The translations under genes were made by a program, and so were the position numbers. DNA of 32,736 nt from Prevotella sp. (GTDB lineage Bacteria; Bacteroidota; Bacteroidia; Bacteroidales; Bacteroidaceae). Location: assembly GCA_017557185.1 (NCBI GenBank), contig JAFZAP010000017.1, positions 1 through 32,736 on the forward strand, read 5' to 3'. This document shows positions 1,818 through 20,079 of this stretch, one piece after another (the stretch's first letter is position 1; every line of letters begins with the position of its first letter). The notes under the pieces are model-generated. The model saw nothing but the letters and a program-made list of their open reading frames with translations. It did not search any database and had not been told where the DNA came from.

Positions 1818-2246
1818 ATGAAAAAAACATATAAAACACCAGTCGAAGAGCTAGCACTTCGTGCCTTGATGTCCGTGAGGGTCTTGGCTCTGGTGAGCAA
1901 GCTCCCCGATCCACTCCCTCACATTCATCATTTCTTCGAAATCACCTCTTCTCCTGGCAAAAAACATAAAAAAAGGGCCCCACTCCGACTCTCCCCCGCT
2001 CGGCTATGCCGCTTTCAGAGCGATAGCGGGGAAAGAAAGGGGGAGAGAGAAGGATGTCGCATGTTCAGCGTGTTGATGACTGAAGAGGAATGGTCTCCCT
2101 CTCCCTTCGGAGGGGGCTGGGGTGAGGCTCCTTTTTTCCTGTTTTTTGCCGCTGTGATGGCTGAGTTTTGGAACAAAACCGTGATGTACTTGCGGGCTGT
2201 GCGGAAAGCTCGCTTTCAGGCACAGGACGGAAGAACAACACGTTAG
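1818..2246 (+). CDS. Possible small ORF with a MKKTYKTP start; weak
   Basis: The only argument for this 142-codon plus-strand frame is its N-terminus, MKKTYKTPVEE. It resembles the start of the many short, poorly characterised Bacteroidales peptides that begin MKKTY-x-x-P. After about 25 codons the frame runs through the palindromic repeats of the gap and encodes low-complexity sequence. No Bacteroidota promoter box was found upstream. It is most likely a decayed small gene or chance; a real product would probably be only the first 20-60 residues' worth. Confidence 0.2.
   Translation: MKKTYKTPVEELALRALMSVRVLALVSKLPDPLPHIHHFFEITSSPGKKHKKRAPLRLSPARLCRFQSDSGERKGEREGCRMFSVLMTEEEWSPSPFGGGWGEAPFFLFFAAVMAEFWNKTVMYLRAVRKARFQAQDGRTTR
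1976..2048. repeat. GC-rich palindrome interrupted by a second hairpin
   Basis: The arms ctctccccc (about 1989-1997) and gggggagag (about 2039-2047) belong to the GC-rich palindrome family of this window. Between them sits gctcggctatgccgctttc (1998-2016), which recurs at 19565-19582 and inverted at 20008-20026. The arrangement looks like one repeat inserted in the loop of another. Confidence 0.6.
2095..2131. repeat. GC-rich palindromic repeat (intergenic copy)
   Basis: A stem ctccctctccc / ggaggggg is followed by the conserved tail ctggggtgaggct. It is nearly the same as the copy at 9096-9131, which overlaps the end of the GH31 gene. Confidence 0.8.
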
Positions 2247-2310: not shown

Positions 2311-4245
2311 TCAATTGTCAATTACTACGACCATACCGCCACGGGCGGAGAGGGTGACGGCCTTGGGCAGCGAGGCAGGCTGACTGATGAGCCAGGGAGC
2401 CCCACCCTGACCCTCCCCAGCAGGGAGGGAACTGCCGGAGTCGGCAAAGCAGGTGATTTTCCTTTGATCCTTTGAACCCAGAATGGCCTTCAGGCCCTTC
2501 AGACAGATGGTCTGCGGCTCGTCGCGTCCGTTGAGCATGCCTACATACCACGTGTTGCCGTTGCGTCGCGCCATGATGACATATTGTCCGGGATAGCCGC
2601 CCAGCAGGCGCGTCTCGTCCCAGACGGTGGGCAGGTTGCCGAGGAACTGCCGCACCTCCTTGGGTTGCGCGAGGAAGCTCTCGGGGCGGTCGGCGAGATG
2701 TTGCAGCGCCGACTCATAGACCACCGTCAGCGCGAGCTCGTGGGCGTGGGTGGTGATGTGCGGATGCTGTGAGTCGCTGAAGGCGCAGGGCGTGTAGTCC
2801 ATCGGTCCGATGACGTTGCGCGTGAAGGGCAGCATGCAGTTGTGGGCTGCCGCCTTCGTGGTGAACGTCGGCACGTTGTTATACCATTCGGCACCATAGA
2901 CGCCCTCGGTGGAGAGGAGGTTCGGCCACGTGCGCTGCCAACCGCGGGGAATGGTGGCTCCGTGGAAGTTGGCGAGCAGATGGTGTCGGGCCGCGCTCTC
3001 GAGCAGGTCCTGACAGTACTGCATGTTCATCTGCGTGTCGCCGGAGAAGAAGTCGATTTTCACGCCTGCTACGCCGATACGCTCACACCACGCGAACTCG
3101 CGCTCGCGGTCCTCGGGTTTGTTCAACCGGAACTTCGGTCCCGGCGCTCCGTCGAGCCAGCCCACGGAGGAGTTGTACCAGATGAGCGGCTTCACGCCCT
3201 GCTGGCGCGCGTAGGCAACGGCATCCTCGATGGTCTTGCCGTCCTTCATCTCATCCCACTCGGCATCGATGAGCACGTAGGGCAGGTGGAGCGACACAGC
3301 GAGGTCGACGTATTTCTTGATGATGTTGTAGTCGTTGGAGCCGTGATTGTAGGCCCAATAGACCCACGACACCACGCCGGGCTTGATCCAGCTGGTATCG
3401 GCAATCTTCGAAGGCTCGGCCATATCGGTGATGAGGGTAGATTCGACGATGTCGGCCAGCGTGCCCATCATGACCACTCGCCAAGGAGAATGCCACGAAC
3501 CGCTGATGTCGACGTCGTTCTGGTCGGGTGCCACGCGATAGAGCTCGCCGTCGTTGTAAAGGCACGACGCACTCTGCCGCGACTCGATGTTCGACTCGGA
3601 GAACAGCGCATAGACGGTCTGTCCCTGCCGATGGTCGGAGAGGTCGAAGAGGCAGGGATAGCCCCAGCGGTTCGGAGTCCGGTTCCATCGCGACGGCTGG
3701 CCGGTCTTGCCTGTGAGCGTGAGCGGGAAGAAACCTTCGTAGCCGTCGCTCCAGGGCTGCAGCCAGCGGGGTGTGCCCTCGGGGATGCGGAACGTGGTGT
3801 GCTCGGCAGCGAAGCGGCAAACGGGGAGGTTTTCGAGCTCATAGCGGAAGGCGATGCCGTCGTTGCAGAGTCGTACGACGAGCACCTGCTCGCGTCCCGA
3901 CGGCTCGCGGAACGTGTAGCGATACTCGTTGCACTGATTCGTGCAGTGCAGGCGCTTTCCGGCAAGCATCGTGTAGTCGATGTCGATGTGGCGTGGCGCA
4001 CTGCTGCCGACGAAGGCGAGGGAAGCCCCACCCTGGCCCTCCTTGGAGCCATTATTGGTTTCTGTAAGAGAGACGCCCACGTTGGTAAAGGTGAGCACCT
4101 GCCGACCCTTGTAGAACACTTCGAACTGACTGCCCTGTTGCTTCAGGGCGATGCGGCCGTTAGGCGACTTCGCCGGAGCTGCCGAGGCTCCCGAAGAAAC
4201 AAACAGGCAAAGCAGCAAAGAGGAAAGAACTTTCAGCGGATTCAT
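2311..4245 (-). CDS. Secreted GH97 glycoside hydrolase, retaining type (alpha-galactosidase-like)
   Basis: This 644-residue protein has a signal peptide (residues 1-22, ending ASA), an N-terminal beta-sandwich (about 25-280), a TIM barrel and a C-terminal beta domain, the GH97 layout. GVKIDFF places Asp398 where retaining GH97 enzymes carry the nucleophile. Glu453 in EGVYGAEWYN lies 55 residues further on, the spacing remembered for the acid/base of the Bacteroides retaining alpha-galactosidase. Inverting SusB-type GH97 enzymes instead use glutamates, so alpha-galactosidase or another alpha-glycosidase of the retaining branch is favoured over SusB. Two short stretches, SKEGQGGAS (about 67-75) and LPAGEGQGGAPW in the C-terminal domain, are encoded by GC-rich palindromes. 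The gene starts 13 bp before the stop of... the upstream alcohol dehydrogenase gene's end, so the two are surely co-transcribed. Confidence 0.85.
   Translation of the reverse strand: MNPLKVLSSLLLCLFVSSGASAAPAKSPNGRIALKQQGSQFEVFYKGRQVLTFTNVGVSLTETNNGSKEGQGGASLAFVGSSAPRHIDIDYTMLAGKRLHCTNQCNEYRYTFREPSGREQVLVVRLCNDGIAFRYELENLPVCRFAAEHTTFRIPEGTPRWLQPWSDGYEGFFPLTLTGKTGQPSRWNRTPNRWGYPCLFDLSDHRQGQTVYALFSESNIESRQSASCLYNDGELYRVAPDQNDVDISGSWHSPWRVVMMGTLADIVESTLITDMAEPSKIADTSWIKPGVVSWVYWAYNHGSNDYNIIKKYVDLAVSLHLPYVLIDAEWDEMKDGKTIEDAVAYARQQGVKPLIWYNSSVGWLDGAPGPKFRLNKPEDREREFAWCERIGVAGVKIDFFSGDTQMNMQYCQDLLESAARHHLLANFHGATIPRGWQRTWPNLLSTEGVYGAEWYNNVPTFTTKAAAHNCMLPFTRNVIGPMDYTPCAFSDSQHPHITTHAHELALTVVYESALQHLADRPESFLAQPKEVRQFLGNLPTVWDETRLLGGYPGQYVIMARRNGNTWYVGMLNGRDEPQTICLKGLKAILGSKDQRKITCFADSGSSLPAGEGQGGAPWLISQPASLPKAVTLSARGGMVVVIDN
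2398..2429. repeat. GC-rich palindrome in frame in the GH97 gene (3' part)
   Basis: The sequence agccccaccctgaccctcc followed by ccagcagggaggg shares the head and stem of the copies at 4024 and 4592. It is translated as LPAGEGQGGAP in the C-terminal domain of GH97 without breaking the frame. Confidence 0.75.
4024..4050. repeat. Partial GC-rich palindrome in frame in the GH97 gene (5' part)
   Basis: The head agccccaccctggccctcc matches the copy at 2398-2429 in 17 of 18 positions, but the second arm is eroded to ttggag. It encodes SKEGQGGAS in a loop of the N-terminal sandwich. Confidence 0.65.
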
Positions 4246-4258
4246 ACGTATTGCTCAT

Positions 4259-5272
4259 TTAGAATTTGGTTAGGATGCGGAATACTTTTCCAGGAGCGGC
4301 AGCCCATTCCTCCATTGCCTGCGGAGCCTCTTCCGGGCTGACGACGCGACTGATGAGGCGGTCGATGGGGCAGGTGCCGCGCTCCAAGTAGCGGATGACG
4401 GCACGGAAGTCCTGCGGCAGGGCGTTGCGCGAGCCGCGGATGTCGAGTTCCTTCTGCACGAAGTACTTCGTCTGGAACGACACCTCTGTCTTCGCATAGC
4501 CGATGCAGACCACACGGCCGGTGAAGTCGACAACATCGATGGCCATCTGATAGGTGGGCACACTGCCCACAGCCTCAATGACGACTGAGGGAGCCCCTCC
4601 CCAGCCCTCCCCCGAAGGGAGGGGGTTTGGTGAACGGAGGGTGTTTACGGCATAGGTGGCGCCCATCTCGCGAGCAAGGGCAAGCTTCTCGTCGTCGATG
4701 TCGGCAGCGATGACGGTGGCTCCGCGCAGGACTGCCCGCACGACGGCACCCATACCCACCATTCCACAACCGATGACCATCACTACGTCGTTGTCGGTGA
4801 CCTGTGCGCGGTCCACAGCGTGGAAGCCCACGCTCATCGGCTCTACCAGCGCACAGACTTTCGGCGTGAGCTGTTCGGCAGGGATGATCTTCTCCCACGG
4901 CAGAACGATGGTTTCACGCATCGCTCCGTTGCGCTGAACGCCAAGTGTTTCGTTGTGCTGACAGGCATTAGGCCGACGATTACGACACGATGCACACTTG
5001 CCGCAGGCGGTGTAGGGATTCACCGTTACCACCATTCCTGGCTGCAAATGCTCGGGGACATCGCTACCTACTGCCTCGATGACGGCACCCACCTCATGAC
5101 CGGGGATGACGGGCATCTTCACCATCGGGTTACGGCCCAGATAGGTGTTGAGGTCGGAGCCGCAGAATCCGACATACTGCAGGCGTACCTTCACATCGCC
5201 TGCCTTCATTTCCTGTTCGGGAACGTCGACAACCTGTATCTGGCGTTCACCTGTGATTTGTATTGCTTTCAT
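4259..5272 (-). CDS. Zinc-dependent medium-chain alcohol/polyol dehydrogenase
   Basis: This is a cytoplasmic 337-residue MDR-family enzyme oxidising a hydroxyl of a sugar, polyol or sugar acid with NAD(P). The catalytic zinc ligands read Cys37 (GFCGSD) and His59-Glu60 (GHE). The structural zinc cysteines are 90, 93, 96 and 104. The Rossmann motif is GCGMVGMGAV. The start MKAIQIT at 5272 is preferred: the 14 extra codons upstream in the same frame come from a heptamer array. The closest relatives by eye are sorbitol, threonine and RspB/L-galactonate dehydrogenases, so the substrate is unknown. Its place beside a sugar-1-dehydrogenase and a lactonase candidate suggests the sugar acid or its keto-deoxy product. 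LRSPNPLPSGEGWGGAPS, in the linker after the Rossmann ADIDDEKL strand, is encoded by a GC-rich palindrome inserted in frame. Confidence 0.85.
   Translation of the reverse strand: MKAIQITGERQIQVVDVPEQEMKAGDVKVRLQYVGFCGSDLNTYLGRNPMVKMPVIPGHEVGAVIEAVGSDVPEHLQPGMVVTVNPYTACGKCASCRNRRPNACQHNETLGVQRNGAMRETIVLPWEKIIPAEQLTPKVCALVEPMSVGFHAVDRAQVTDNDVVMVIGCGMVGMGAVVRAVLRGATVIAADIDDEKLALAREMGATYAVNTLRSPNPLPSGEGWGGAPSVVIEAVGSVPTYQMAIDVVDFTGRVVCIGYAKTEVSFQTKYFVQKELDIRGSRNALPQDFRAVIRYLERGTCPIDRLISRVVSPEEAPQAMEEWAAAPGKVFRILTKF
4592..4630. repeat. GC-rich palindrome in frame in the zinc dehydrogenase gene
   Basis: The sequence agcccctccccagccctcc is followed by the second stem arm gaagggaggggg and tttgg. It is one of the most intact copies and is translated as NPLPSGEGWGGAP between two conserved strands of the coenzyme domain, where homologues normally have a short turn. 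Confidence 0.85.
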
Positions 5273-5281
5273 CAATATAAT

Positions 5282-5302
5282 AGTTCCGAGTTTCGAGTTT
5301 CG
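5282..5302. repeat. Heptamer tandem array (agtttcg, 3 units)
   Basis: Units agttccg, agtttcg, agtttcg lie between the stop codon of the amidohydrolase gene (5307) and the start codon of the dehydrogenase gene (5272). They match the array at 1683-1724 in sequence and orientation. Confidence 0.85.
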
Positions 5303-5306
5303 AGTT

Positions 5307-6245
5307 TTATTCACTCATATTCTTGATATAGGGGAGGTCGGGTAAGTTGCCGAAGCCATAGAAGCGACGGGCATTCTCGCCGAGGAAGAGGCGCTTCTCC
5401 TCGTCGGTGAGTTCAAGGGATTTCACCACAAAGTCATAGCTCATGCGGTAGGTGATGGCGGTAATGGTGCGCGGATAGTCGGAGCCCCACATCAGCTTCT
5501 CCATGCCCGCGAGGTCGGCAGCCTCCTTGATGGCTCGCACCGCCGTCGGGAACGGATAGAACTCCGAGTTGTAAAGCCACGTGATGCCACCCGACTCCAC
5601 ACGGACATTCTCGTGACGTGCCAACCGTATCTGCTCGCGCCAAGCCTCGTTCTCCCAAGGCGGCGACTGCGGCGGATTGGCCATTCCCAGATGACCGATG
5701 GCGATGCGCAGGCGAGGACATTCGGCGATGACTTCGCGCAGCTGCGATACTTGCTCCATTCCATCTTCCAATGTGATCGACAGGAACACATCCTTTGCTT
5801 CCATCAAGCGGAACATCTGCATCATCTCGGGCGACGTGAGCAGACGGCCCAACAGGCGATGACCGGGGATGGCGATGCCGCGGAAGCCCTGCTCAGTGAT
5901 GAGCTTCTCGGCCTGGACATAGAAGCCGTCGGAGAGGTAATCGACCATTCCGCAGGTGAGGAAGCGGTCGGGGTACTGCCTGCTGACCTGGGCGAGATAG
6001 TCGTTCTGTATGCCGTCGATGAACTCCTGCACGACGACTGCTGCCGCCACCTGTGCATAGTCCATATTCGATAGGAACACTTCGGCGGTATTGCGACCGT
6101 CGATGATGAACGGCGGAATCATCTGCACCTCCTCGCCGAGGAAGAGCGAGCGGCCGTTCTTCAGACTGCGGATAGGCAGCCCGTTCCATGAGGTGTCTTG
6201 CTGAAGCCACAAGTGGCTATGGGCGTCGATTAGTTGATAGTTCAT
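5307..6245 (-). CDS. Amidohydrolase of the COG3618 type; candidate L-fucono/L-galactono-lactonase
   Basis: The 312-residue protein is a metal-dependent TIM-barrel amidohydrolase. It shows IDAHSHLW with the metal ligands His9 and His11, the mid-barrel AIGHLGM histidine, and the C-terminal MWGSDYPR with the conserved aspartate. This pattern is typical of the family that includes L-fuconolactonase and L-rhamnonolactonase. Its neighbour is an aldo-keto reductase of the sugar-1-dehydrogenase type, so hydrolysis of the resulting lactone is the natural inference. The ATG at 6243-6245 gives MNYQLIDAHSH. A longer frame back to a TTG at 6347 would add 34 residues encoded by the heptamer array, giving repeated QLSTxN, and is less likely. 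The start codon itself lies in a variant heptamer unit. Confidence 0.75.
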   Translation of the reverse strand: MNYQLIDAHSHLWLQQDTSWNGLPIRSLKNGRSLFLGEEVQMIPPFIIDGRNTAEVFLSNMDYAQVAAAVVVQEFIDGIQNDYLAQVSRQYPDRFLTCGMVDYLSDGFYVQAEKLITEQGFRGIAIPGHRLLGRLLTSPEMMQMFRLMEAKDVFLSITLEDGMEQVSQLREVIAECPRLRIAIGHLGMANPPQSPPWENEAWREQIRLARHENVRVESGGITWLYNSEFYPFPTAVRAIKEAADLAGMEKLMWGSDYPRTITAITYRMSYDFVVKSLELTDEEKRLFLGENARRFYGFGNLPDLPYIKNMSE

Positions 6246-6301
6246 AGTTGAGAGTTGATAGTTGACAGTTGATAGTTGAGAGTTGAGAGTTGAGAGTTGA
6301 G
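6232..6301. repeat. Heptamer tandem array (agttgag/agttgat, 10 units) over a start codon
   Basis: Ten units follow one another without a gap: agttgat, agttcat, agttgag, agttgat, agttgac, agttgat, then agttgag x4, with a further aagttgag directly after. The array overlaps the 5' end of the amidohydrolase gene. Its second unit, agttcat, carries the start codon on the minus strand. Confidence 0.9.
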
Positions 6302-6331
6302 AAGTTGAGACAACCTTTAAAAGGTAATCAA

Positions 6332-6366
6332 AACTATCAACTTTCAACTTTCAATTATCAACTATT
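6332..6366. repeat. Heptamer tandem array (aactatc/aactttc, 5 units)
   Basis: Units aactatc, aactttc, aactttc, aattatc, aactatt run across the stop codon (6358-6360) of the aldo-keto reductase gene. They are roughly inverted relative to the array at 6232-6301. Confidence 0.8.
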
Positions 6367-7308
6367 CTTCCAGCGGACGCGCTGCTGGTCACCAATGATT
6401 TCCTTTACTTTCTCGACGAGCTGCCAATCGATGGGCTTCTCTGCATAGCTGATGCTGCGCAGCACATTCGCGGGCGAGGCGCTGCTGAAGAGCGTTGTGG
6501 CGATGCGCGGCGACAGACTGACGGCAAACTGAATGGCGAGTTCCTCGATGGGATAGCCCTGTGCGGCACAGTATTCGGCAGCACGCTTGCAGGCATTGCG
6601 CAGGCTCTCGGGAGCAGGATGCCAGTCGGGAGCACCACGACTCGATAGCAGACCCATCGAGAACGGCGATGCATTGATGACGCCGATGCCGCGCTCCTCG
6701 AAGTAGTCGAGGTAGTCGGTGAGCATATCGTCGTTCAGGCTGTAGTGGCAGAAGCAGAGGACGCTTTCCACCGTTCCCGGCTCCACATGATCGATGACCC
6801 ACTGCAGGTTCTCGGGCTGCAGGTCGGTGATGCCCACATGGCGCACCACGCCTTCGTCGCGCAACTTCACCAATGCCGGCAACGTCTCGTCGGCCACCTT
6901 CTGCAGACCGCCCGGCAGCGCTGCCTGGAACTCGATGTCGTGAACATTGATGAGGTCGATGTAGTCGATGCCCAGTCGCTCCATGCTCTCATAGACGCTG
7001 CGCGTGACGCGCTCGGCCGAATAGTCCCACGTGTTCACACCATCCTTTCCGTAGCGTCCCACCTTCGTGGAGAGGTAATACTTGTCGCGTGGAATCTCGC
7101 GCAACGCCTTTCCCAGCACCTGCTCGGCCTTCAGATGTCCGTAGTAGGGCGACACATCGATGAAGTTAATGCCGTTGTCCACAGCTACATGAACGGCACG
7201 AATGCCTTCTTCCTCGCGGATACCGTGGAACACACCACCGAGCGACGATGCCCCGAACGACAACGCCGATACCCGCATACCTGTTTTTCCAATTTCGTTG
7301 TAAAGCAT
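6358..7308 (-). CDS. Aldo-keto reductase of the L-galactose / L-fucose dehydrogenase type
   Basis: The 316-residue cytoplasmic enzyme should oxidise C1 of a free L-galactose-configured sugar (L-galactose, L-fucose) to the lactone with NAD(P)+. The AKR tetrad is present: Asp51, Tyr56 (DVSPYYG), Lys82 (LSTKVGRYG) and His123 (NVHDIEF). The stretches FGASSLGGVF, NVHDIEF, FCHYSLND and INASPFSMGLLS closely resemble plant L-galactose dehydrogenase as remembered; that resemblance is stronger than to general AKRs. The start MLYNEIGKTG at 7308 is chosen because the 81 codons upstream in this frame overlap the GH43 gene and encode Arg/Ser/Thr-rich junk. With the downstream lactonase candidate it forms the first two steps of an oxidative deoxy-sugar pathway. 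Confidence 0.8.
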   Translation of the reverse strand: MLYNEIGKTGMRVSALSFGASSLGGVFHGIREEEGIRAVHVAVDNGINFIDVSPYYGHLKAEQVLGKALREIPRDKYYLSTKVGRYGKDGVNTWDYSAERVTRSVYESMERLGIDYIDLINVHDIEFQAALPGGLQKVADETLPALVKLRDEGVVRHVGITDLQPENLQWVIDHVEPGTVESVLCFCHYSLNDDMLTDYLDYFEERGIGVINASPFSMGLLSSRGAPDWHPAPESLRNACKRAAEYCAAQGYPIEELAIQFAVSLSPRIATTLFSSASPANVLRSISYAEKPIDWQLVEKVKEIIGDQQRVRWKNS

Positions 7309-7330
7309 TTGATATAATTGATTGATATGA

Positions 7331-9040
7331 TTATTTCTCCATTCTGTAGTGTAGGTAGTCCACATCGACGATGCCGCTTTCCGACACGTTGTTATAGTTG
7401 TAGATGCCGATGCGGTCGCCACGATAGAAGCCCCACGACAGCCTGTACTCGCCAAAAGGCGTGAAGGTGTCGCCGTCGAGGCTATACGAGAAATGCGACT
7501 GTCCGTCGAGACCCCACGAAGAGCGCAGCCAGAGGTAAAGCCTCTCCCCAACCCTCCCCAACTGGGGAGGGAGTTGGACTACTTGCGACTTGTCATCATG
7601 CCGCAGTTCCAGGAACAGCTGACCGTTCTCACGCACCACGCCGAGACAGCCTGAATGTGCAGCGAAATGACAGAGGCCGGCATGTTGGCCGTCGGCCATC
7701 TGGCTGATATCCATCCTGATGGTCACCTCGTTCGCCTTCGAGCGGAACGAGCGCTGCGTGAGCGTGTTGCCAGCCTTCAGCAACCGGTCGTTCTCCAGCG
7801 GGCGGAACGCCTTCAGCCGCAGCCAGCCCGGTCGCTCACTTAGCGAGAACATCTCCTCGCGTGGCTGGTAGTTCCATTGCCACTGAGGCCCTAACAGCGC
7901 CGCATTAAAGTTATCGCTGCGCGAGAGCTTTCCCCCTCCCCCTTTGGGGAGGGCCGGGGTGGGGCTTATTTTCCCCTGCCAGACCATCGCACCAGGTGAT
8001 GCCTCCCCTAGTTGGGGGAGGTTGGAGGGGGCTTCCATTGGGAGGTTGGAGGGGGCTCCCATTGGGAGGTTGGCTTGGGCCCCCATCATCGGCCAGCCGT
8101 CGCGCCACTCTACCGGCAGCAGACTAACGATGCGGCCGCTCCAGTCGCCCGAGCCGTGATGGGTGAGGAAATACCAATTCCCGTCGCGTCCTTCGACGAT
8201 ACCGCCCTGATTGGGTTCGTTGGCTTCCGTGCACGGCAGCAGCAGCTGGCGTTCCTCGCGGAAACGGCCCTTCATCTTCCTATCGCGCTTCGCCATCACG
8301 TAGCGTCCGACGCCGTCGCGGTGCTCGCTGAATACGATGTAGTACCAGCCGTCGTGCTCAATGAGTTTATTGGCCTCGCGCCCGTTGCCCTCGTTCACGA
8401 GGCGTGCACTGCTGCGGTCGATGCTTCGGCCGTCGGCAGCCATCCGGAAGAGGTAGGTTTTGTAGCCGTCGGCGAAGCATGTGCCGATGAACCACGCCTG
8501 CCCTTTCTTGTCCCAGAACGCCGAACAGTCGTCCCAGCCTTTTTCCTGCAGTAGCGGCGTGAGCGGCTCCCACGGCCCTTCAGCCTTCGGTGCCGACGTC
8601 ATGAAGAATCCTTCGTCCGGTGCACCGAAATAGAGATAGAAGCGGCCGTCGTGATGTCGGAGCGAACCTGCCCAGATGCCGCGACCGTAGCGATCCATCT
8701 GCTGCCAGCCCAGTGCAGGCGAGATCTGCGTGAGATCGCTGACGGCATTGCCGGCTATCTCCCAGTTCACGAGGTCGCGCGAATGCAGGATGGTCATGCC
8801 GGGCGAGAACTGCATCGTCGACGAGATGGCGTAGTAGTCATCGCCCACGCGGATGCAGTCCAGGTCGCTATAGTCGGCAGGAATCACCGGATTGCGATAG
8901 GTTCCGTTGCCCTGGTCGCCCCACGTCTGCCAGTCGCCCCAGCGCACCGGCTCTTGTGACCAAGCGTCCTGCGTTACAAAGTAACAAGGCAGCAAGGTCA
9001 CAAAGAAGCTCAGTAGCCAGGAAGCGTATCTCTTATTCAT
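7331..9040 (-). CDS. Secreted GH43 glycosidase (beta-xylosidase/arabinofuranosidase-like) with C-terminal sandwich domain
   Basis: This 569-residue protein has a signal peptide (hydrophobic 8-22), a five-bladed GH43 propeller (about 45-325) and a C-terminal concanavalin-A-like domain (about 375-569), as in GH43 xylosidases and arabinofuranosidases. The expected triad is Asp59 (base, DYSDLD), Asp171 (GWDDCSAFWD) and Glu222 (acid, REANKLIE). The linker between the domains is unusual: residues around 330-365 repeat NLPMGAPSNLPMEAPSNLPQ and then SPTPALPKGGGG. Both are encoded by GC-rich palindromic repeats and their tandem copies. A further copy (7540-7578) sits inside the C-terminal domain as LPPQLGRVGERL. 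The gene is 22 bp upstream of the aldo-keto reductase. Exact specificity (xylose or arabinose) cannot be read by eye. Confidence 0.85.
   Translation of the reverse strand: MNKRYASWLLSFFVTLLPCYFVTQDAWSQEPVRWGDWQTWGDQGNGTYRNPVIPADYSDLDCIRVGDDYYAISSTMQFSPGMTILHSRDLVNWEIAGNAVSDLTQISPALGWQQMDRYGRGIWAGSLRHHDGRFYLYFGAPDEGFFMTSAPKAEGPWEPLTPLLQEKGWDDCSAFWDKKGQAWFIGTCFADGYKTYLFRMAADGRSIDRSSARLVNEGNGREANKLIEHDGWYYIVFSEHRDGVGRYVMAKRDRKMKGRFREERQLLLPCTEANEPNQGGIVEGRDGNWYFLTHHGSGDWSGRIVSLLPVEWRDGWPMMGAQANLPMGAPSNLPMEAPSNLPQLGEASPGAMVWQGKISPTPALPKGGGGKLSRSDNFNAALLGPQWQWNYQPREEMFSLSERPGWLRLKAFRPLENDRLLKAGNTLTQRSFRSKANEVTIRMDISQMADGQHAGLCHFAAHSGCLGVVRENGQLFLELRHDDKSQVVQLPPQLGRVGERLYLWLRSSWGLDGQSHFSYSLDGDTFTPFGEYRLSWGFYRGDRIGIYNYNNVSESGIVDVDYLHYRMEK
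7540..7578. repeat. GC-rich palindrome in frame in GH43 (C-terminal domain)
   Basis: The sequence agcctctccccaaccctcccc, then aactggggagggagttgg, is an intact stem with a short loop. It encodes PPQLGRVGERL between strands of the C-terminal sandwich. Confidence 0.85.
7931..7967. repeat. GC-rich palindrome in frame in GH43 (linker)
   Basis: The sequence tccccctcccc, ctttggggagggc and the tail cggggtggggctt form a near-consensus copy in the opposite orientation to the one at 4592. It encodes the SPTPALPKGGGGK part of the linker. Confidence 0.85.
8012..8085. repeat. Tandem 24-26 bp repeat in the GH43 linker (3 units)
   Basis: Three units start with ttgggaggttgg or the variant ttgggggaggttgg and end ctccca or a variant: 8012-8037, 8038-8061 and 8062-8085. 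They are derived from the GC-rich palindrome arm just before them and encode repeated NLPMxAPS. Confidence 0.85.
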
Positions 9041-9088
9041 CTTGCTAAATATTTATTTGACCCCTTTGAATTGCGTGGTCCCTACAAG

Positions 9089-11335
9089 CTACTTGCTCCC
9101 TCTCCTTTTGGAGAGGGCTGGGGTGAGGCCCATAGTCTTTTTGAATGCCTTCTGGGTGGAATGACGAATGAAAACCGGAATGCGCGACTTGTCGACAGCA
9201 GTCGTCACGGTCTGTCCGCCCTCGTAGTGCCGACCCGTGTAGTAGTCGTCCCAGCCGCCCTTACAGCGAGGCAGGTAGGTCGTCCACTCGGTCACGCCAG
9301 CCTCCGTGACGGGGTTCACGAGCAGCGATGGACCGAACATATACTCACACTGCTGGCGCAAGGCCTCAGGGTCGTCGGCGAAGTCGAACACCAGCGGTCG
9401 CATCAGGGTGTAGCCCTCGTTGGCAATGCGCTTGGCACATTGTTCTATATAGGGGCGCAGGCGCTCGCGCTCGCGTAGACAGCCGGCGATGATCTGCTGA
9501 GCCTCGGGGCCGTAGTTCCACGGCTCTGTGTTGCTCATGTAGCCATGCACGCGCATCAGCGGCAGGAAAACGCTTGTCTCTATCCAGCGCAGCATGCGCT
9601 CGATGTAGGCGGCATCGGTATATTGATTGCCGGGACGGAAGAAGCCGCCGGCATCGTAGGTCCACCAAGGAACGCCTGCCGCCTGCACACCGAGGCCTGC
9701 CACGATCTGGCGGCGAAGGGTCTCCCAGTCGTTGCCCACATCGCCACTCCACAGGGCAGAGCCGTAGCGCTGTATGCCCGGGTAGCCGCTTCGTGTGAGA
9801 ATCATCGGCTCGCGACCTGCAGCCACCAATCCTTCATAGACGGTCTTGTTCACCAACAGCGGATAGACATTGCGCACCAGCTCGCCAGCCCAGCGGCCGC
9901 CGTTCACGCGACGTCCAGCCAGATCGTCGTTTTCCGGTTCTGTGGCATCCTGCCACCACGCATCGATGCCCAGCGGCAGCAGCCGCTCGCTGAAATTCTT
10001 CCAATAGGCCGCAGCGGCAGCCGGATTGAAGAAGTCTATCCAGTCGGTGCCGGGGATGTAATAGCCTGCCGACTCCATCTCGCGACCCACCTCCGACTGC
10101 TTGTCGATCTTCGACCACACGCTCAGCATCAGGCGCAGCCCCATGTTGTGCAGACTGTCGGTGAGAAGCTTGGGGTCGGGATAGTATTCTTCGTCGAAGC
10201 TCATAGAATTCCAGCCGTACTTCCCCCACCACTGCCAGTCTTGCACGATCATACTCACGGGCAGCTGTTCCTGACGGAAGCGGTTGGCAGTCTCGAGAAT
10301 CTCCTGCGACGAGTGGAAGCGCTCGCGGCAGTGTATGTAGCCCAAGGCCCAGTCGGGCATCAGTGGACAAGGCCCCGTCAGCTCGCGATAGGCAGCGATG
10401 ATTTCGTCGGGCGTACCCACGAACACGGTGTAGTCCACTGCCTCCGACACGGGTGAGCGGAACGTCGTGACATCCTTCACGCGGTCGTAGTAGAGCACGG
10501 GGCGGTCGTCTCTTGTCAGTTCTGCAGAAATAGTATGCCGGCCCGCGTCCAGATGCACAATCTTCGAAGTCGTCGGCGGTAGCCAGAGGTTCTGCATGTC
10601 GATGACCGTCTGTCCGTCGATGACGAGGTTGTGGCGACGTGCCATCTTCTGCCCAACGTCGAGCAACAGCGAATAGTCGCCAGCCTCGGGGATATCGAGG
10701 GACGTCTCGAAGATATGCCGCTCGCGCACTTCACGCCGCCCGCCGCTCGTCGAGGTGACGTTCACTACTTCACTCTCCCCTGCCCCATCACGCTTCACGA
10801 GGCTCACGCTGTGGCTGCAGGGATTGAACTCCGTCAGTCCGTAGTTGTTCCACAGGATGCCGTAGCCCTTACTCGAGATGAGCATGGGCAGCGAAATCTG
10901 CGTGTTCACCTGCGTCAGCCGTCGCGACAGACCGCGCACGTTGCTGTAGCCGTCCTGGAACTGGCCGAGGCCGAACAGACACTCATCGGGCGACAATGCG
11001 AAGGTCAGCGTGGCGGTGCCGTCCTCTAGTTGGTGGCTGAGCGCTGTGAACACGGTGTTGCCCCTTTTGTCGAGCACGCGCAACGACTGCCCGTCGGCAC
11101 CGATGCTGGCTTTCACCGCCTTGCTCGTCACCTCGCCATGCTTCACATAGAGCCAGTCGGGCAAATCCCTCACCACTCTCCACTCTCCACTCTCGTCTCT
11201 CCACTCTCCACTCTCCTCTTTCACATACTGCACCCTCACCGCATTCTTCGCAACGGTCTTCACAGTCAGTTTCCCTCCTGCCTGCGCCACCATCGAAACA
11301 GCGGCCAACGCACCTATCAGAATAATCTTCCTCAT
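9089..11335 (-). CDS. Secreted GH31 alpha-glycosidase with PA14-like insert (alpha-xylosidase candidate)
   Basis: The 748-residue protein has a signal peptide (1-19), an N-terminal beta-sandwich, a PA14-like insertion (about 190-275, with DIPEAGDYSLLLDVG and VIDGQTVID), the GH31 barrel and C-terminal sheets. WWQDATEPE places the nucleophile at Asp463, and WSGDVGNDW the acid/base at Asp532. A PA14 domain inserted in the N-terminal sandwich, together with the WWxDATEPE form of the nucleophile motif, is known from bacterial xyloglucan alpha-xylosidases, which makes that the first guess; alpha-glucosidase is the alternative. Residues 41-55, SGEWRDESGEWRVVR, are encoded by six 7-bp repeat units. 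The C-terminal LTPALSKRRGSK comes from a GC-rich palindrome. The start ATG lies 64 bp after the upstream GH43 stop. Confidence 0.85.
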   Translation of the reverse strand: MRKIILIGALAAVSMVAQAGGKLTVKTVAKNAVRVQYVKEESGEWRDESGEWRVVRDLPDWLYVKHGEVTSKAVKASIGADGQSLRVLDKRGNTVFTALSHQLEDGTATLTFALSPDECLFGLGQFQDGYSNVRGLSRRLTQVNTQISLPMLISSKGYGILWNNYGLTEFNPCSHSVSLVKRDGAGESEVVNVTSTSGGRREVRERHIFETSLDIPEAGDYSLLLDVGQKMARRHNLVIDGQTVIDMQNLWLPPTTSKIVHLDAGRHTISAELTRDDRPVLYYDRVKDVTTFRSPVSEAVDYTVFVGTPDEIIAAYRELTGPCPLMPDWALGYIHCRERFHSSQEILETANRFRQEQLPVSMIVQDWQWWGKYGWNSMSFDEEYYPDPKLLTDSLHNMGLRLMLSVWSKIDKQSEVGREMESAGYYIPGTDWIDFFNPAAAAAYWKNFSERLLPLGIDAWWQDATEPENDDLAGRRVNGGRWAGELVRNVYPLLVNKTVYEGLVAAGREPMILTRSGYPGIQRYGSALWSGDVGNDWETLRRQIVAGLGVQAAGVPWWTYDAGGFFRPGNQYTDAAYIERMLRWIETSVFLPLMRVHGYMSNTEPWNYGPEAQQIIAGCLRERERLRPYIEQCAKRIANEGYTLMRPLVFDFADDPEALRQQCEYMFGPSLLVNPVTEAGVTEWTTYLPRCKGGWDDYYTGRHYEGGQTVTTAVDKSRIPVFIRHSTQKAFKKTMGLTPALSKRRGSK
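9096..9131. repeat. GC-rich palindrome forming the 3' end of the GH31 gene
   Basis: The sequence ctccctctccttttggagag, then ggctggggtgaggccc, is a clean hairpin followed by the conserved tail. It supplies the last residues (GLTPALSKRRG) of GH31; the stop codon follows directly. Confidence 0.85.
11174..11215. repeat. Heptamer array in frame in the GH31 gene (6 units, 42 bp)
   Basis: Units cactctc x3, gtctctc, cactctc x2 add up to 42 bp, exactly 14 codons, read as SGEWRDESGEWR. Gain or loss of one 7-bp unit would shift the frame near the start of the protein. Confidence 0.9.
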
Positions 11336-11340
11336 ATTAT

Positions 11341-11396
11341 AAACTTGAAACTCGAAACTCGAAACTCGAAACTCGAAACTATAAACTATAAACTAT
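11341..11396. repeat. Heptamer tandem array (aaactcg/aaactat, 8 units)
   Basis: Units aaacttg, aaactcg x4, aaactat x3 fill almost the whole 64 bp gap between the stop codon of the first GH43 gene (11400) and the GH31 start (11335). It is the inverse of the agtttcg arrays at 1683 and 5282. Confidence 0.9.
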
Positions 11397-11399
11397 TAA

Positions 11400-12818
11400 C
11401 TAAAAAGCTCTCCATTCCCACACGCCACAGACGCCTTCCTTGATGGTCACACGCAGATAGCGATACTTGCGGCCGGGCTTATCGACGTGAGGCGAACGCT
11501 TCTGCACGTCGGCATGACCTCCGCACACCTCCCAGCTCCGACCGTCGTGCGAGCCCTCCAGCACATAGGCATGACCCGCCGTCGGGCGCACGAAGCACAA
11601 CTCGCTCTGCCGAATCATCCGCTCGCGACCCAAGTCCATCATCAGCCAGGCCGTCTCCTTTCTCTCCACTCTCCTCTCTCCACTCTCGTCTCTCTCTCCC
11701 ATCCAGCGCGAACCATTCTTCCCGTCAACAGCAAACTCCGGCACGAAGTGCTCCGTGCGCTGGCACCGCTTGTCGTTGAAATAGCGTATCGGCATCGGCT
11801 TCTTCACACTCGAGGCCGTGACGGCAACAGGTTTCAAGGGCTTCCCCGACTGCATCTTACGCAGCGCGCCCACTCCGTCGAGCGTCACCTGCACAGGCTT
11901 GATCGTGCCGTCGTTGTTGAACTCCAGCTTGTTGACGTATGTCTGGCGGTTGGTGCTATTCCGGCCGAACTCCAGGAAGGCAAAATAGTAGTCGTCGCCA
12001 TCGTTGAACACGCAGCCGTGACCAGGGCCGAACACCCCGCGCTCCACGCATGTCGTCGACACGAGGTCGTGCGCAGGAACGTCGTAGGGGCCGAGGGGCG
12101 ATGTGCGACTCATCATGTAATAGTACTCATAGTTCTCGTCGCCGCCGATGGTATAGAGATAGTAGTAGATGCCCCGCCGCTTGAAGAAGATGGGACCCTC
12201 GCTATACTCCTTGCGGCGCGTCTCCAGCGTCTTCACCTCGCCCAGCGTCATCATGTCGTCGGCAAGCTTCGCCACGTGGCGGCCGCCCCAGAAGGCATAG
12301 GCCTGGCCGTCGTCGTCGATGAACACCTCGGCGTCGATGCCTCCGCGGTTCTCCGACTGCAGCAGCGTAGCGGCCTCAGCGAAGGGTTTCGTGAACTTAT
12401 CCTCCCCTTTGGCCAGTCGGAACGGACCGTCAGGACTCTCGGCCACACCCACGTGCATATAGCCGTTCACGGTCGGGTAGATATACCAACGGCCGTTATG
12501 CTCCACCGCCTTGCTCGGTGCCCAGTATTTCTCCTGTTCAGCCGACGGGAAGTAGGTTCCCTCGAAGCTCCAGTTCACGAAGTCCTTCGACTTCCACACC
12601 ACCGGAGGCCCCGACGTCTCCAGTCCGCGACCATAGCCGTCGGTCGTGGCATAGCAGTAGAACGTGTCGCCAATCAGCAGAATGCTGGCATCGGCAATCA
12701 TATCGGGCACCAGCGCATGACCGAAGGGATTGGTCGGCAAATCCCCTCCTACCTTCCCCCACTCAGGGAGACAAAGCAGCCACATCAGGCACCCTATCAG
12801 TAACATTTTCCTCATCAT
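11400..12818 (-). CDS. Secreted GH43 glycosidase with C-terminal F5/8-type (CBM32-like) module
   Basis: The 472-residue protein has a signal peptide (hydrophobic 5-17), a GH43 propeller (about 30-330) and a C-terminal discoidin-like sugar-binding module (about 345-472, with AWLMMDLG and LEGSHDG). Candidate catalytic residues are Asp43 (PDMIADASI), Asp162 (GGIDAEVFIDDDG) and Glu207 (YSEGPIFF). Arabinofuranosidase, xylosidase or galactosidase activity is possible. It is the first gene of the operon. Three ATGs compete (12818, 12815, 12806). The nearest promoter box lies only 5 bp above the first, so 12815 or 12806 may be the true start on that transcript. The segment LPEWGKVGGD after the signal peptide comes from a GC-rich palindrome, and ERDESGERRVERK in the binding module from a heptamer array. 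Confidence 0.85.
   Translation of the reverse strand: MMRKMLLIGCLMWLLCLPEWGKVGGDLPTNPFGHALVPDMIADASILLIGDTFYCYATTDGYGRGLETSGPPVVWKSKDFVNWSFEGTYFPSAEQEKYWAPSKAVEHNGRWYIYPTVNGYMHVGVAESPDGPFRLAKGEDKFTKPFAEAATLLQSENRGGIDAEVFIDDDGQAYAFWGGRHVAKLADDMMTLGEVKTLETRRKEYSEGPIFFKRRGIYYYLYTIGGDENYEYYYMMSRTSPLGPYDVPAHDLVSTTCVERGVFGPGHGCVFNDGDDYYFAFLEFGRNSTNRQTYVNKLEFNNDGTIKPVQVTLDGVGALRKMQSGKPLKPVAVTASSVKKPMPIRYFNDKRCQRTEHFVPEFAVDGKNGSRWMGERDESGERRVERKETAWLMMDLGRERMIRQSELCFVRPTAGHAYVLEGSHDGRSWEVCGGHADVQKRSPHVDKPGRKYRYLRVTIKEGVCGVWEWRAF
11660..11694. repeat. Heptamer array in frame in the GH43 binding module (5 units)
   Basis: Units ttctctc, cactctc, ctctctc, cactctc, gtctctc are the same type as the array in GH31. 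They are read as part of ERDESGERRVERK in a loop between the first strands of the F5/8-type module. Confidence 0.8.
12743..12770. repeat. GC-rich palindrome at the signal-peptide end of GH43
   Basis: The sequence cccctcctaccttccccc followed by actcagggag is a degenerate copy. It encodes LPEWGKVGG, directly after the hydrophobic core of the signal peptide. Confidence 0.6.
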
Positions 12819-17553: not shown

Positions 17554-17951
17554 TTCTAAGGAATGAAGGAATCAAGGAATTTAGACAGAGAGACATAGAG
17601 TCGGAAAAAGAAAGAATCGAAAGTAATCGGATTATGGAGAGCGATTCCGCTCGCGGAATCATAACGTTTGACAGAGCCGGCATTGACAAACGATTTGACC
17701 TTCGGTCTTACTCTGTCACGACTCGGCATAGCTCAAGCAAGCTTGGCTTTGCTCTCGCTGCTCCATCGTTTGTCATGCAGACTCTATCGAACGTGTGACG
17801 ATGGTGAGAAACACCATCTCCTCCATGATCCAATTACTTTCGTTCATTCGCTGAATTCGTAAAATTTGCAGACAAATAATTAATGAAAATTTGCGGAAAT
17901 GCGTTCCCCGATTCCTATGTTCCTTAGAAATCTCTCTTTGTCTCTCTGTCT
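17554..17951. repeat. Structured repeat element, copy A
   Basis: The left flank has ttctaaggaatgaaggaat and agacagagagacatagagtc. The right flank has gattcctatgttccttaga and ctctttgtctctctgtct. Between them a 181 bp core (17640-17820) is bounded by imperfect inverted repeats of 22 bp (17618-17639 and 17821-17842). The core has a hairpin at each end (17643-17660 gattccgctcgcggaatc; 17800-17818) and 11 bp inner arms tgacaaacgat / atcgtttgtca. The core is about 98 percent identical to that of copy B but inverted. Open frames exist because the DNA is conserved, not because a protein is evident. Confidence 0.9.
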
Positions 17952-17960
17952 TATTTGCTT

Positions 17961-17996
17961 CTCTCTCCCCCTTGGGGAGAGTCGGAGTGGGGCTCC
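17961..17996. repeat. GC-rich palindromic repeat next to element A
   Basis: The sequence ctctctccccc, ttggggagag and tcggagtggggctcc is a clean copy of the family with the conserved tail. It lies between element A and the hairpin downstream of tig. Confidence 0.8.
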
Positions 17997-18035: not shown

Positions 18036-18077
18036 ACTTTTATTGAAGATTTAGAATTCGTCCTTCTGCTTATGTTC

Positions 18078-19415
18078 TTACTCGCTCATGAGCTTGTTGA
18101 ACTCGTCGAGGGAAACGGTCTTCTCGTCGAGCTTCACGACGTTCTTCATCACAGCAATGAGTTTCTGGTCGATGGCGCGATCGACGAAGCCCTGCACGTT
18201 TTCTTCCTTCTTCAGCATATCCTGAGCGTAGTTGTCGAGATACTCGTCGGGAACATTCGACATGCCATACTGGGCAAACTGGGCGCGAGCAGCCTCGCGG
18301 GCGGCAGTCTTCACCTCTTCGTCGCTGATCTTGATGTCGTGAGCGCTGACGAGCTGCTCCTTGATGAGGTGCCAAGCCAGTTCCTTCACGCTACCCTCGT
18401 AGTTCTTCTCGACATAGTCGTCGCCCTTGTCCTGGTTGTTCTGCTTCATGATGCGCTTCAGCAGCTCATCGGGCCACGTCAGCTTGCCAGCCTTCTTCTC
18501 GCAATGCTTGCGCAGATCCTGCAGGAACTTCCAGTCGCTGTTCTGCTGCAGCTGAGCCTTCAGCTCGCCAGCCACGCGCTCGCGGAACTCCTTCTCGTCC
18601 TTCACGGCGTCCTTGCCATAGACCTGGTCGAACAGCTCCTGGTTCACTTCAGCGGGAGCGAAACGGCTGATCTCGGTAATCTGATAGGTGAAGTCGCCCG
18701 TGTGGAAGCCCAGATCGGCCTTGTCGACCTTCAGGAACGAAGCCAGCTCGGCATCGCTCTGATAGGCCTGACGGGGGTTGAAGGTGATGATGTCGCCCAG
18801 CTTCGAGCCCTCGAAGAGCTTCTTCTGAGCCTCTTCCTTGATGTAGGTGGGCATCACGACAGCCTCGGTGAGCTCAATACCGTTCTCCTTGTCAAGCTCG
18901 CGCAGGTCGCCCTTCAGCATATCGTTGTCCTGATAGTCGTCGGCCTTCTGATAGCTGCCGCTACGCGAAGCGTACATGCGAACCTGCTGGTCGATGAGCT
19001 TGTCGTCGACGTCGATGGTCAGGTAGTCCACTTTGTCGTGACCGCTCAACTTCACGTTGATCTCGGGAGCAACGGCCAAATCGAACTGGAACGTGTAGGG
19101 AGCATCCTTCTCGATATCGACAGCCTCGTTGCCCTCGTGCGGCAGGGGCTCGCCCAGCATCTGGATGTTGTTGTCCTTCACATACTTATACATCTCCTGG
19201 CCCACCACGTGGTTGATGGCATCCATCTTCACGGCTGTGCCATACATGCGCTTGATCATGCCCATGGGCACCTGACCAGGACGGAAGCCAGGCACGTTGG
19301 CCTTCTTGCGATAGTCTTTCAGCGTCTTCTCAACAGCCTCCTTGAAATCATTCTCTTCGACGGTGATGGTCATCAAGCCATTCACTTTGTCGGGATTCTC
19401 AAATGTGATATTCAT
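18078..19415 (-). CDS. tig: Trigger factor, ribosome-associated chaperone
   Basis: The 445-residue protein binds the ribosome exit tunnel and shields nascent chains. The N-terminal domain carries the ribosome-binding loop GFRPGQVP at 43-50. The middle FKBP-like domain (about 150-245) is degenerate, without the usual peptidyl-prolyl isomerase core residues that I would expect. The C-terminal helical chaperone arms are Lys/Glu-rich and amphipathic. Length fits the family. The gene is isolated: repeat element A lies downstream and element B upstream, with a likely promoter of its own at 19462. Confidence 0.95.
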   Translation of the reverse strand: MNITFENPDKVNGLMTITVEENDFKEAVEKTLKDYRKKANVPGFRPGQVPMGMIKRMYGTAVKMDAINHVVGQEMYKYVKDNNIQMLGEPLPHEGNEAVDIEKDAPYTFQFDLAVAPEINVKLSGHDKVDYLTIDVDDKLIDQQVRMYASRSGSYQKADDYQDNDMLKGDLRELDKENGIELTEAVVMPTYIKEEAQKKLFEGSKLGDIITFNPRQAYQSDAELASFLKVDKADLGFHTGDFTYQITEISRFAPAEVNQELFDQVYGKDAVKDEKEFRERVAGELKAQLQQNSDWKFLQDLRKHCEKKAGKLTWPDELLKRIMKQNNQDKGDDYVEKNYEGSVKELAWHLIKEQLVSAHDIKISDEEVKTAAREAARAQFAQYGMSNVPDEYLDNYAQDMLKKEENVQGFVDRAIDQKLIAVMKNVVKLDEKTVSLDEFNKLMSE

Positions 19416-19461
19416 CTTCTTATTTACGATTTACTAATGTTCGATTTACGATTTCGGGCTG

Positions 19462-19469
19462 CAAAATTA
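19462..19469 (-). promoter_or_regulatory. Probable tig promoter (-7 box)
   Basis: TAATTTTG on the minus strand, followed by C, fits the Bacteroidota box. No TTTG is seen at the usual distance upstream. The leader would be about 40 bases. Confidence 0.5.
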
Positions 19470-19564
19470 CTCATTTTTCGCCGAACTACCTAATATAATG
19501 TGAAATTATTTGGTTTTTTTACCGAAAAACCACCCAAAAGGTTAGGTTTAAGACAACTTAGACC

Positions 19565-19690: not shown

Positions 19691-20079
19691 TTCTAAGGAA
19701 TGAAGGAATAGAGGAAATTAGACAGAGAGACATAGAGTCGGACAAAGAATGATTCGAAAGTAATTTGGATAATGGAGGAGATGGTGTTTTCTCACCATCG
19801 TCACACGTTCGATAGAGACTGCATGACAAACGATGGAGCAGCGAGAGCAAAGCCAAGCTTGCTTGAGCTATGCCGAGTCGTGACAGAGTAAGACCGAAGG
19901 TCAAATCGTTTGTCAATGCCGGCTCTGTCAAACGTTATGATTCCGCGCGCGGAATCGCCCTCCATCATCCAAATTACTTTCGAATCATTCTTTCTTCGTT
20001 TCACTACGAAAGCGGCAAAGCCGAGCGCGTTTCCCCGATTCCTATGTTCCTTAGAAATTTCTCTTTGTCTCTATGTCTA
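19691..20079. repeat. Structured repeat element, copy B (core inverted relative to A)
   Basis: The outer flanks match copy A in the same orientation. The 182 bp core (19778-19959) is the reverse complement of the A core, with only a few differences. It is bounded by 34 bp inverted repeats with one mismatch (19744-19777 and 19960-19993). The right flank also holds gaaagcggcaaagccgagc (20008-20026), absent from copy A. Confidence 0.9.

Follow-up and report, generated by a model that had tools for sequence, protein, structure and literature searches.

The closest described relatives of the repeat analysed here are the intrastrand-triplex motifs (PIT/TM) of proteobacteria, where the pattern TM_ECO, CCCTCNCCCN3-6GGGNGAGGGN3GGGNGAGGG, occurs 3610 times in 262 genomes (PMC4666352). 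In the portion of that 2015 survey drawn on here, TM sites of Escherichia coli K-12 are always intergenic, no mobile element is named behind the motifs of E. coli and many other bacteria, their origin is left unexplained, and the word "Bacteroidetes" does not occur. Two other systems are comparable in part. According to the passages cited, REPtrons place the gene of a DNA-cutting enzyme between inverted copies of a dispersed hairpin repeat (PMC6006769, PMC3733652), and Rickettsia palindromic elements are repeats of about 150 bp that are read in frame within unrelated genes (PMC10969869). The present analysis concerns a 32,736-nucleotide contig of Prevotella sp. (GCA_017557185.1, JAFZAP010000017.1), called the window below, in which GC-rich palindromic repeats lie both between genes and in frame inside them.

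These repeats are predicted triplex motifs, and they are probably the ends, usually inverted, of small cassettes that carry a DUF559 endonuclease gene and are copied whole or as bare ends, with in-frame copies selected. The broader proposal would make such repeats the ends of a widespread class of mobile elements with a DUF559/Vsr-like (YcjD) enzyme, inserting in frame into housekeeping proteins of several phyla and writing new loops or domains; we rate it a shade better than even.

The repeat family named by the original prediction is real: the window contains eight matches to AGCCCCWCCCCRGCCCTCCCC with at most 3 mismatches, against 0.01 expected, and the source genome (G000; 3.35 Mb, 116 contigs, 89% complete) contains 145 copies of the core GGGGAGGGCYGGGGWGGGGC at the same tolerance, against 10 for a reversed-pattern control. 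With at most 2 mismatches, the source genome has 107 copies, the next highest count among 150 genomes of the genus (source included) is 24, and 66 of these genomes have a match. The named assemblies nearest to the source genome are of Prevotella and Prevotellaceae, most of them from ruminants. A slightly wider pattern finds 51 copies in the sister genome G167 (RUG178; control 6), 69 in the sister genome G169 (RUG12665; control 3) and 0 to 16 in each of six other genomes searched. At the level of the phylum, 39 of 395 genomes, from 28 of 170 genera, carry a strict form of the pattern.

Judged by its base pattern, the unit of about 37 nt would fold as an intrastrand triplex, with hairpin arms CCCTCCCC and GGGGAGGG and a third strand GGGGTGGGG. 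Its details come from 136 copies, found with at most 4 mismatches within 442 kb around about 100 of the 145 copies, tandem and degenerate ones included. The main consensus reads CTCCCTCCC-loop-GGGGAGGG-YY-GGGGTGGGGC, with 8-nt arms and a 2-nt second loop, and a second form reads CTCCCTCTCC-loop-GGAGAGGG-CT-GGGGTGAGGC. The hairpin arm pairs at 7 or 8 of 8 positions in 107 copies. Aligned with the purine arm under reverse-Hoogsteen pairing (G on G; A or T on A), the 3' part fits at all 8 positions in 103 copies, at 7 in 20 and at fewer in 13. Across four subfamilies, a shift of the A in the purine arm is matched by a shift of the A or T in the third strand; the four leading forms by A position have 58, 24, 4 and 4 copies. 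A general triplex finder called 12 motifs in 193 kb of the source genome and 98 in 1.2 Mb of G167, and none in three shuffles of each of these sequence sets. Hairpin energy is a weak signature (z-scores of -1.1, -1.5 and -3.0 for three units); the third strand is the key feature.

The motif and TM_ECO are alike in having a C-rich arm, a G-rich arm, a second G-rich strand and a CCCTC..GAGGG core, as well as high copy number and a patchy distribution between relatives. They differ in dimensions, since TM_ECO has stems of 9 and a second loop of 3, whereas the stem here is about 8 and the second loop 2 nt, and the exact TM_ECO pattern is not matched. They also differ in setting: in the text cited, TM_ECO is always intergenic and unlinked to mobile elements, whereas some copies here lie in genes and some beside DUF559 (PMC4666352).

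The link to DUF559 is most direct in the source genome, which has seven DUF559 hits. Six were examined for motifs, leaving aside the seventh (C42:129849, E 6.3e-4), and all six are flanked on both sides by inverted motifs, at distances of 13 to 107 bp. Within a cassette, the ends are identical or almost identical on contigs C2, C6 and C42 and similar on C62 and C115. The DUF559 genes on C42 and C62 stand alone; that on C6 is nested in PriA, and those on C2, C113 and C115 are fused to IspF, RNase H and RpiB. A cassette of G167 (C30), related to C113, carries the main window family at both ends. In a comparison with miniature inverted-repeat transposable elements, the motif is shared by small and gene-bearing copies: 9 of the 98 motifs of G167 also agree with two cassette types in the bases just inward of the cassette ends, and the window copy at 8002-8031 equals one end of the priA cassette. 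One GAF-domain gene exists in three states, being empty in G167, carrying a 40-aa repeat insert in the source genome and holding an in-frame DUF559 in G169, where the strict triplex finder calls the right end of the cassette.

This linkage extends to other genomes. Among 61 DUF559 loci (the 30 best-scoring of the phylum, the 25 best-scoring of other Prevotella and 6 of the source genome), 45 have a motif within 300 bp, 34 of them on both sides; the phylum set contributes 24 of its 30. Motif density falls from 3.06/kb within 300 bp (111 motifs) to 0.069/kb at 500-1500 bp (8 motifs). Control gene sets have a motif within 300 bp at 3 of 85 loci (Y1_Tnp 1/26, alcohol dehydrogenase 0/17, RdgB/LpxB/XseA 2/42). 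In E. coli K-12, ycjD is a DUF559 gene, with a motif 167 bp from its 3' end. In a plasmid collection, 18 of 43 DUF559 hits were sampled and nine have a motif within 400 bp, in Proteobacteria, Cyanobacteria and Deinococcota; the single Bacillota locus among the 18 has none in that range. Counted by genome, 32 of the 39 with the motif and 190 of the 356 without it have DUF559 (Fisher p 5.5e-4; strict motif pattern, weak DUF559 hits included, phylogeny not corrected for). Of 33 motif copies analysed in 29 loci of other phylum members, 9 are in open reading frames (ORFs) open for at least 80 codons on both sides.

DUF559 domains also lie in frame within conserved enzymes: LeuRS (L414, L417, L438), MetH (L403, L421, L423, L429, L431, L439) and HsdR (L419, L422, L427). 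Within one MetH (L403) and within a type ISP enzyme (L397), Pfam places the domain beside a motif. Other members of the phylum also have in-frame triplex motifs in an HsdR (L406) and a cysteinyl-tRNA synthetase-like gene (L399), whose searched ORFs showed no DUF559 domain. In sequence comparison, DUF559 hits two solved structures, 3hrl (E 2.9e-20) and 3r3p, which bears the name "Mobile intron protein" (E 6.4e-4). The latter is presumably I-Bth0305I, with its EDxHD motif. The match to 3r3p, at E 6.4e-4 only, and the nesting in conserved genes recall homing endonucleases of the Vsr-like fold. Here, in contrast, the host frame runs open through the nuclease domain, the ends are triplex motifs, and neither an intein family among the Pfam hits nor an intron was seen, introns not having been searched for. 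Among open-access PubMed Central papers that mention DUF559, none is about repeats or mobility by its title and the start of its abstract.

The most serious rival, though an unlikely one, holds that DUF559 genes land in pre-existing inverted triplex pairs, which serve as safe sites, and that the repeats spread by other means. It would accommodate inverted pairs that have no DUF559, such as that in LpxB of G167, and the excess of repeats over DUF559 genes (145 against 7). Tandem inverted TM sites are also reported in E. coli in the cited part of the survey (PMC4666352). The cassettes themselves fit it less well: their ends differ from one cassette of the source genome to another, yet are alike within C2, C6 and C42, small copies of two families share bases just inside cassette ends, and the GAF site is empty in one sister and DUF559-bearing in the other.

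Within the window, the original prediction named ten places. Pattern matches were recovered at 2095, 2398, 4024, 4592, 7540, 7931, 9096 and 17961, and the place at 8012 is a variant, CCTCCCCTAGTTGGGGGAGGTTGGAGGGGG; position 12743 has neither a pattern match (at most 4 mismatches) nor a triplex motif. The strict triplex finder calls seven of the ten (2400, 4594, 7541, 7934, 8002, 9098, 17963), and the copies at 2095 and 4024 are degenerate. The copies and their host genes are as follows.

1976..2013, minus strand: intergenic copy, a pattern match with 3 mismatches, absent from the original prediction
2092..2129, plus strand: intergenic degenerate copy of the form CTCCCTCTCC..GGGGTGAGGC, a pattern match missed by the strict triplex finder
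2311..4245, minus strand: host gene, GH97
2398..2435, minus strand: copy in frame in the GH97 gene, peptide SSLPAGEGQGGAP, about 8 aa longer than L056
4024..4061, minus strand: in-frame GH97 copy, degenerate, peptide NNGSKEGQGGAS; the corresponding site of L056 reads LPTGEGQGGAP
4259..5314, minus strand: host gene, zinc-binding alcohol dehydrogenase family
4592..4629, minus strand: in-frame zinc dehydrogenase copy, peptide SPNPLPSGEGWGGAP, which takes the place of native sequence
7331..9040, minus strand: host gene, GH43 with C-terminal domain
7539..7576, minus strand: in-frame GH43 copy, within the C-terminal domain, peptide VQLPPQLGRVGERLY
7929..7966, plus strand: exact antisense copy in the GH43 gene, read in frame as peptide SPTPALPKGGGG, within the linker that joins the GH43 and C-terminal domains
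8002..8031, plus strand: variant copy CCTCCCCTAGTTGGGGGAGGTTGGAGGGGG, also in the GH43 linker; one end of the priA DUF559 cassette (contig C6) has the identical sequence
9089..11335, minus strand: host gene, GH31
9093..9130, plus strand: copy at the GH31 3' end, encoding the C-terminal tail TMGLTPALSKRRGSK
17957..17994, plus strand: intergenic copy, variant GGGGAGAG / GGAGTGGGG

The repeat copies avoid genes, yet the frame is kept when one lies inside a gene. Coding sequence is clear on both flanks of 35 of the 136 copies, by frame-classification thresholds that we chose ourselves; 32 of these have flanks on the same strand and in the same frame, none on the same strand in different frames and 3 on opposite strands. 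Coding lies on one side only of 55 copies and on neither side of 46. Assignment by open frame places 49 of the 136 in genes, 32 in sense and 17 in antisense, and all six reading frames are used (16, 7, 9 and 4, 10, 3). In G167, 13 of 97 copies are same-frame and one is different-frame. At shifted control positions in that genome, 58 to 65 of 97 or 98 were called same-frame, so copies are depleted in genes both there and in the source genome (32/136). These counts uphold the proposal that coding copies keep the frame, as Rickettsia palindromic elements do. The openness of the frames was not taken as proof of selection, because five or six frames are open in 110 of the 136 copies in any case.

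A restriction to carbohydrate genes, as originally proposed, describes the window only. Elsewhere the hosts, by best family match, include lpxB, xseA, rdgB, rsmD (the lpxB and rsmD matches being slightly below the NCBIfam curated cut-off), PBP4 and fucokinase, along with an Mfd-like protein, glycerate kinase, pectate lyase, C25 peptidase and GH92, and hosts such as lpxB, xseA, rdgB and rsmD rule that restriction out.

Alignments indicate that the in-frame copies in RdgB, LpxB and XseA are lineage-specific, with sister species lacking or varying the inserts. The RdgB insert of the source genome is in none of 12 aligned homologues, the RdgB of G167 being about 90% identical. At the first LpxB site, only G167 and G169 among 12 homologues have inserts, and those of the source genome, G167 and G169 are all different; that of G167 is a complete inverted motif pair, and the other 10 homologues have none. 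In the mid loop of XseA, other inserts are present in G167 and G169, a short one in G018 and none in the remaining nine. Distant homologues sharing the peptides, which would mark them as ancient protein sequence, were looked for and not seen in the RdgB and LpxB alignments. Comparison of the 49 in-gene copies with G167 gave 25 with a match and 18 alignments across the site, in which G167 is shorter by 17 to 40 aa in some, has a different repeat in many and is longer in a few. AlphaFold2 models predict the RdgB insert (133-146, pLDDT <50) to lie between two strands and the second LpxB insert (201-215) in a low-confidence loop. Clean insertion is ruled out as a rule for all copies by the zinc dehydrogenase, where about 18 residues are replaced with no net gain in length.

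A mobile element with triplex ends and a DUF559 enzyme, whose small copies are bare ends, is the simplest account of the triplex architecture, the lineage-specific in-frame copies, the close DUF559 linkage, the nested DUF559 domains and the gene in three states. The cassette, consisting of inverted triplex ends and a gene for a DUF559 Vsr-like endonuclease, or just one of its ends, would be copied to new places, with DUF559 probably recognising the motif and driving the movement, and the small copies would derive from cassettes. The motif is almost free of stops in all frames, so that an insertion of suitable length could be read as a short Gly/Pro/Glu-rich loop. Selection would then retain insertions in tolerant loops, and the repeat-encoded peptides are presumably translated and harmless.

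Several observations weigh against this account. The zinc dehydrogenase copy is a replacement, and inspection of six aligned sites by eye showed no target-site duplication. Seven of the 39 motif-positive genomes have no DUF559 hit, 190 of the 356 motif-negative ones have one, and 16 of the 61 DUF559 loci, including the MetH-nested L421, L429 and L439, have no motif within 300 bp. The ends of the C113 cassette are two different variants, one being the main window family; cassette ends elsewhere are not always inverted with tails outward; and the left end of the GAF cassette of G169 is degenerate. For the CTCCCTCTCC form, with its 23 copies, no DUF559 partner turned up in the 89%-complete source genome.

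If the cassette account is true, it gives a role to DUF559, so far a domain of unknown function. The finding of the nuclease gene so often between two motifs makes the enzyme-substrate relation directly testable. The in-frame copies offer a case outside Rickettsia of repeats turned into protein, in which sister species show the sites before and after.

An improbable reading is that the repeats are passive products of slippage or break repair at triplex DNA, with DUF559, as a putative repair endonuclease, kept nearby for repair. Inserts are indeed often composite, the motif being joined by heptad arrays or other palindromes. The cited sources add that TM sites are linked with instability in E. 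coli (PMC4666352) and that the DUF559 protein VsrA of Caulobacter is a proposed repair endonuclease (PMC12907096). Such a process gives no reason to expect motif pairs that closely flank the gene on either side, or DUF559 domains within PriA, LeuRS and MetH.

Movement of the repeats as repetitive extragenic palindromes (REPs) by a REP-associated tyrosine transposase (RAYT) is very improbable: although in-frame intragenic REPs are known in other bacteria, by the account cited (PMC3733652), and the source genome has a RAYT-like gene, that gene is flanked by a different palindrome, GTAGGGGCAGACCCC, and a triplex motif within 300 bp at only 1 of 26 Y1_Tnp loci speaks against RAYT as the mobiliser. 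REPtrons, as described in the passages cited, share the layout of an enzyme gene between inverted repeats, but their enzyme is a Y1 HuH transposase instead of DUF559, and the repeats are unlike (PMC6006769, PMC3733652). The triplex consensus has no GTAG or CGTC tetranucleotide at the foot of the hairpin. The flanks of 11 RAYT-like loci were also inspected; in the source genome, the RAYT-like gene (contig C7 68686-69220, L166) lies between inverted GTAGGGGCAGACCCC palindromes. The sequence GGGGTCTGCCCCTAC occurs 8 times in 466 kb of the source genome and 32 times in 1.2 Mb of G167.

A reading as Rickettsia palindromic elements, to which the original prediction had likened the repeats, is unsupported because the unit, a triplex motif of about 37 nt, is read in all six frames. 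In-frame insertion into unrelated genes is common to both, whereas the conserved-peptide unit of about 150 bp described in the cited text was not found here, and the triplex build and DUF559 partner set the present repeat apart (PMC10969869).

Other repeats occur in the same region. Arrays of 7-base repeats (CTCTCCA, AGTTGAG, AGTTTCG) lie in the window at 11171-11222, 11664-11699, 1676-1727, 5282-5307, 6232-6303 and 11341-11400; relative to homologues, the GH31 array inserts about 12 aa in frame, and XseA also contains a 7-base array. At 8016-8087, a 24-base unit is repeated three times in tandem directly after the 8002-8031 triplex motif, with the GH43 frame kept. An inverted repeat of 183 bases, 98% complementary, at 17629-17811 and 19788-19970 brackets a long ORF (18072-19493). 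In the GH31 gene of Red_deer_2_mag_77 (L096), the insert NLPQLGEASDPTTSPSWGRQEGA stands at a different GH31 site and resembles the priA cassette ends of the source genome (NLPQLGEA, SPSWGRLEGA).

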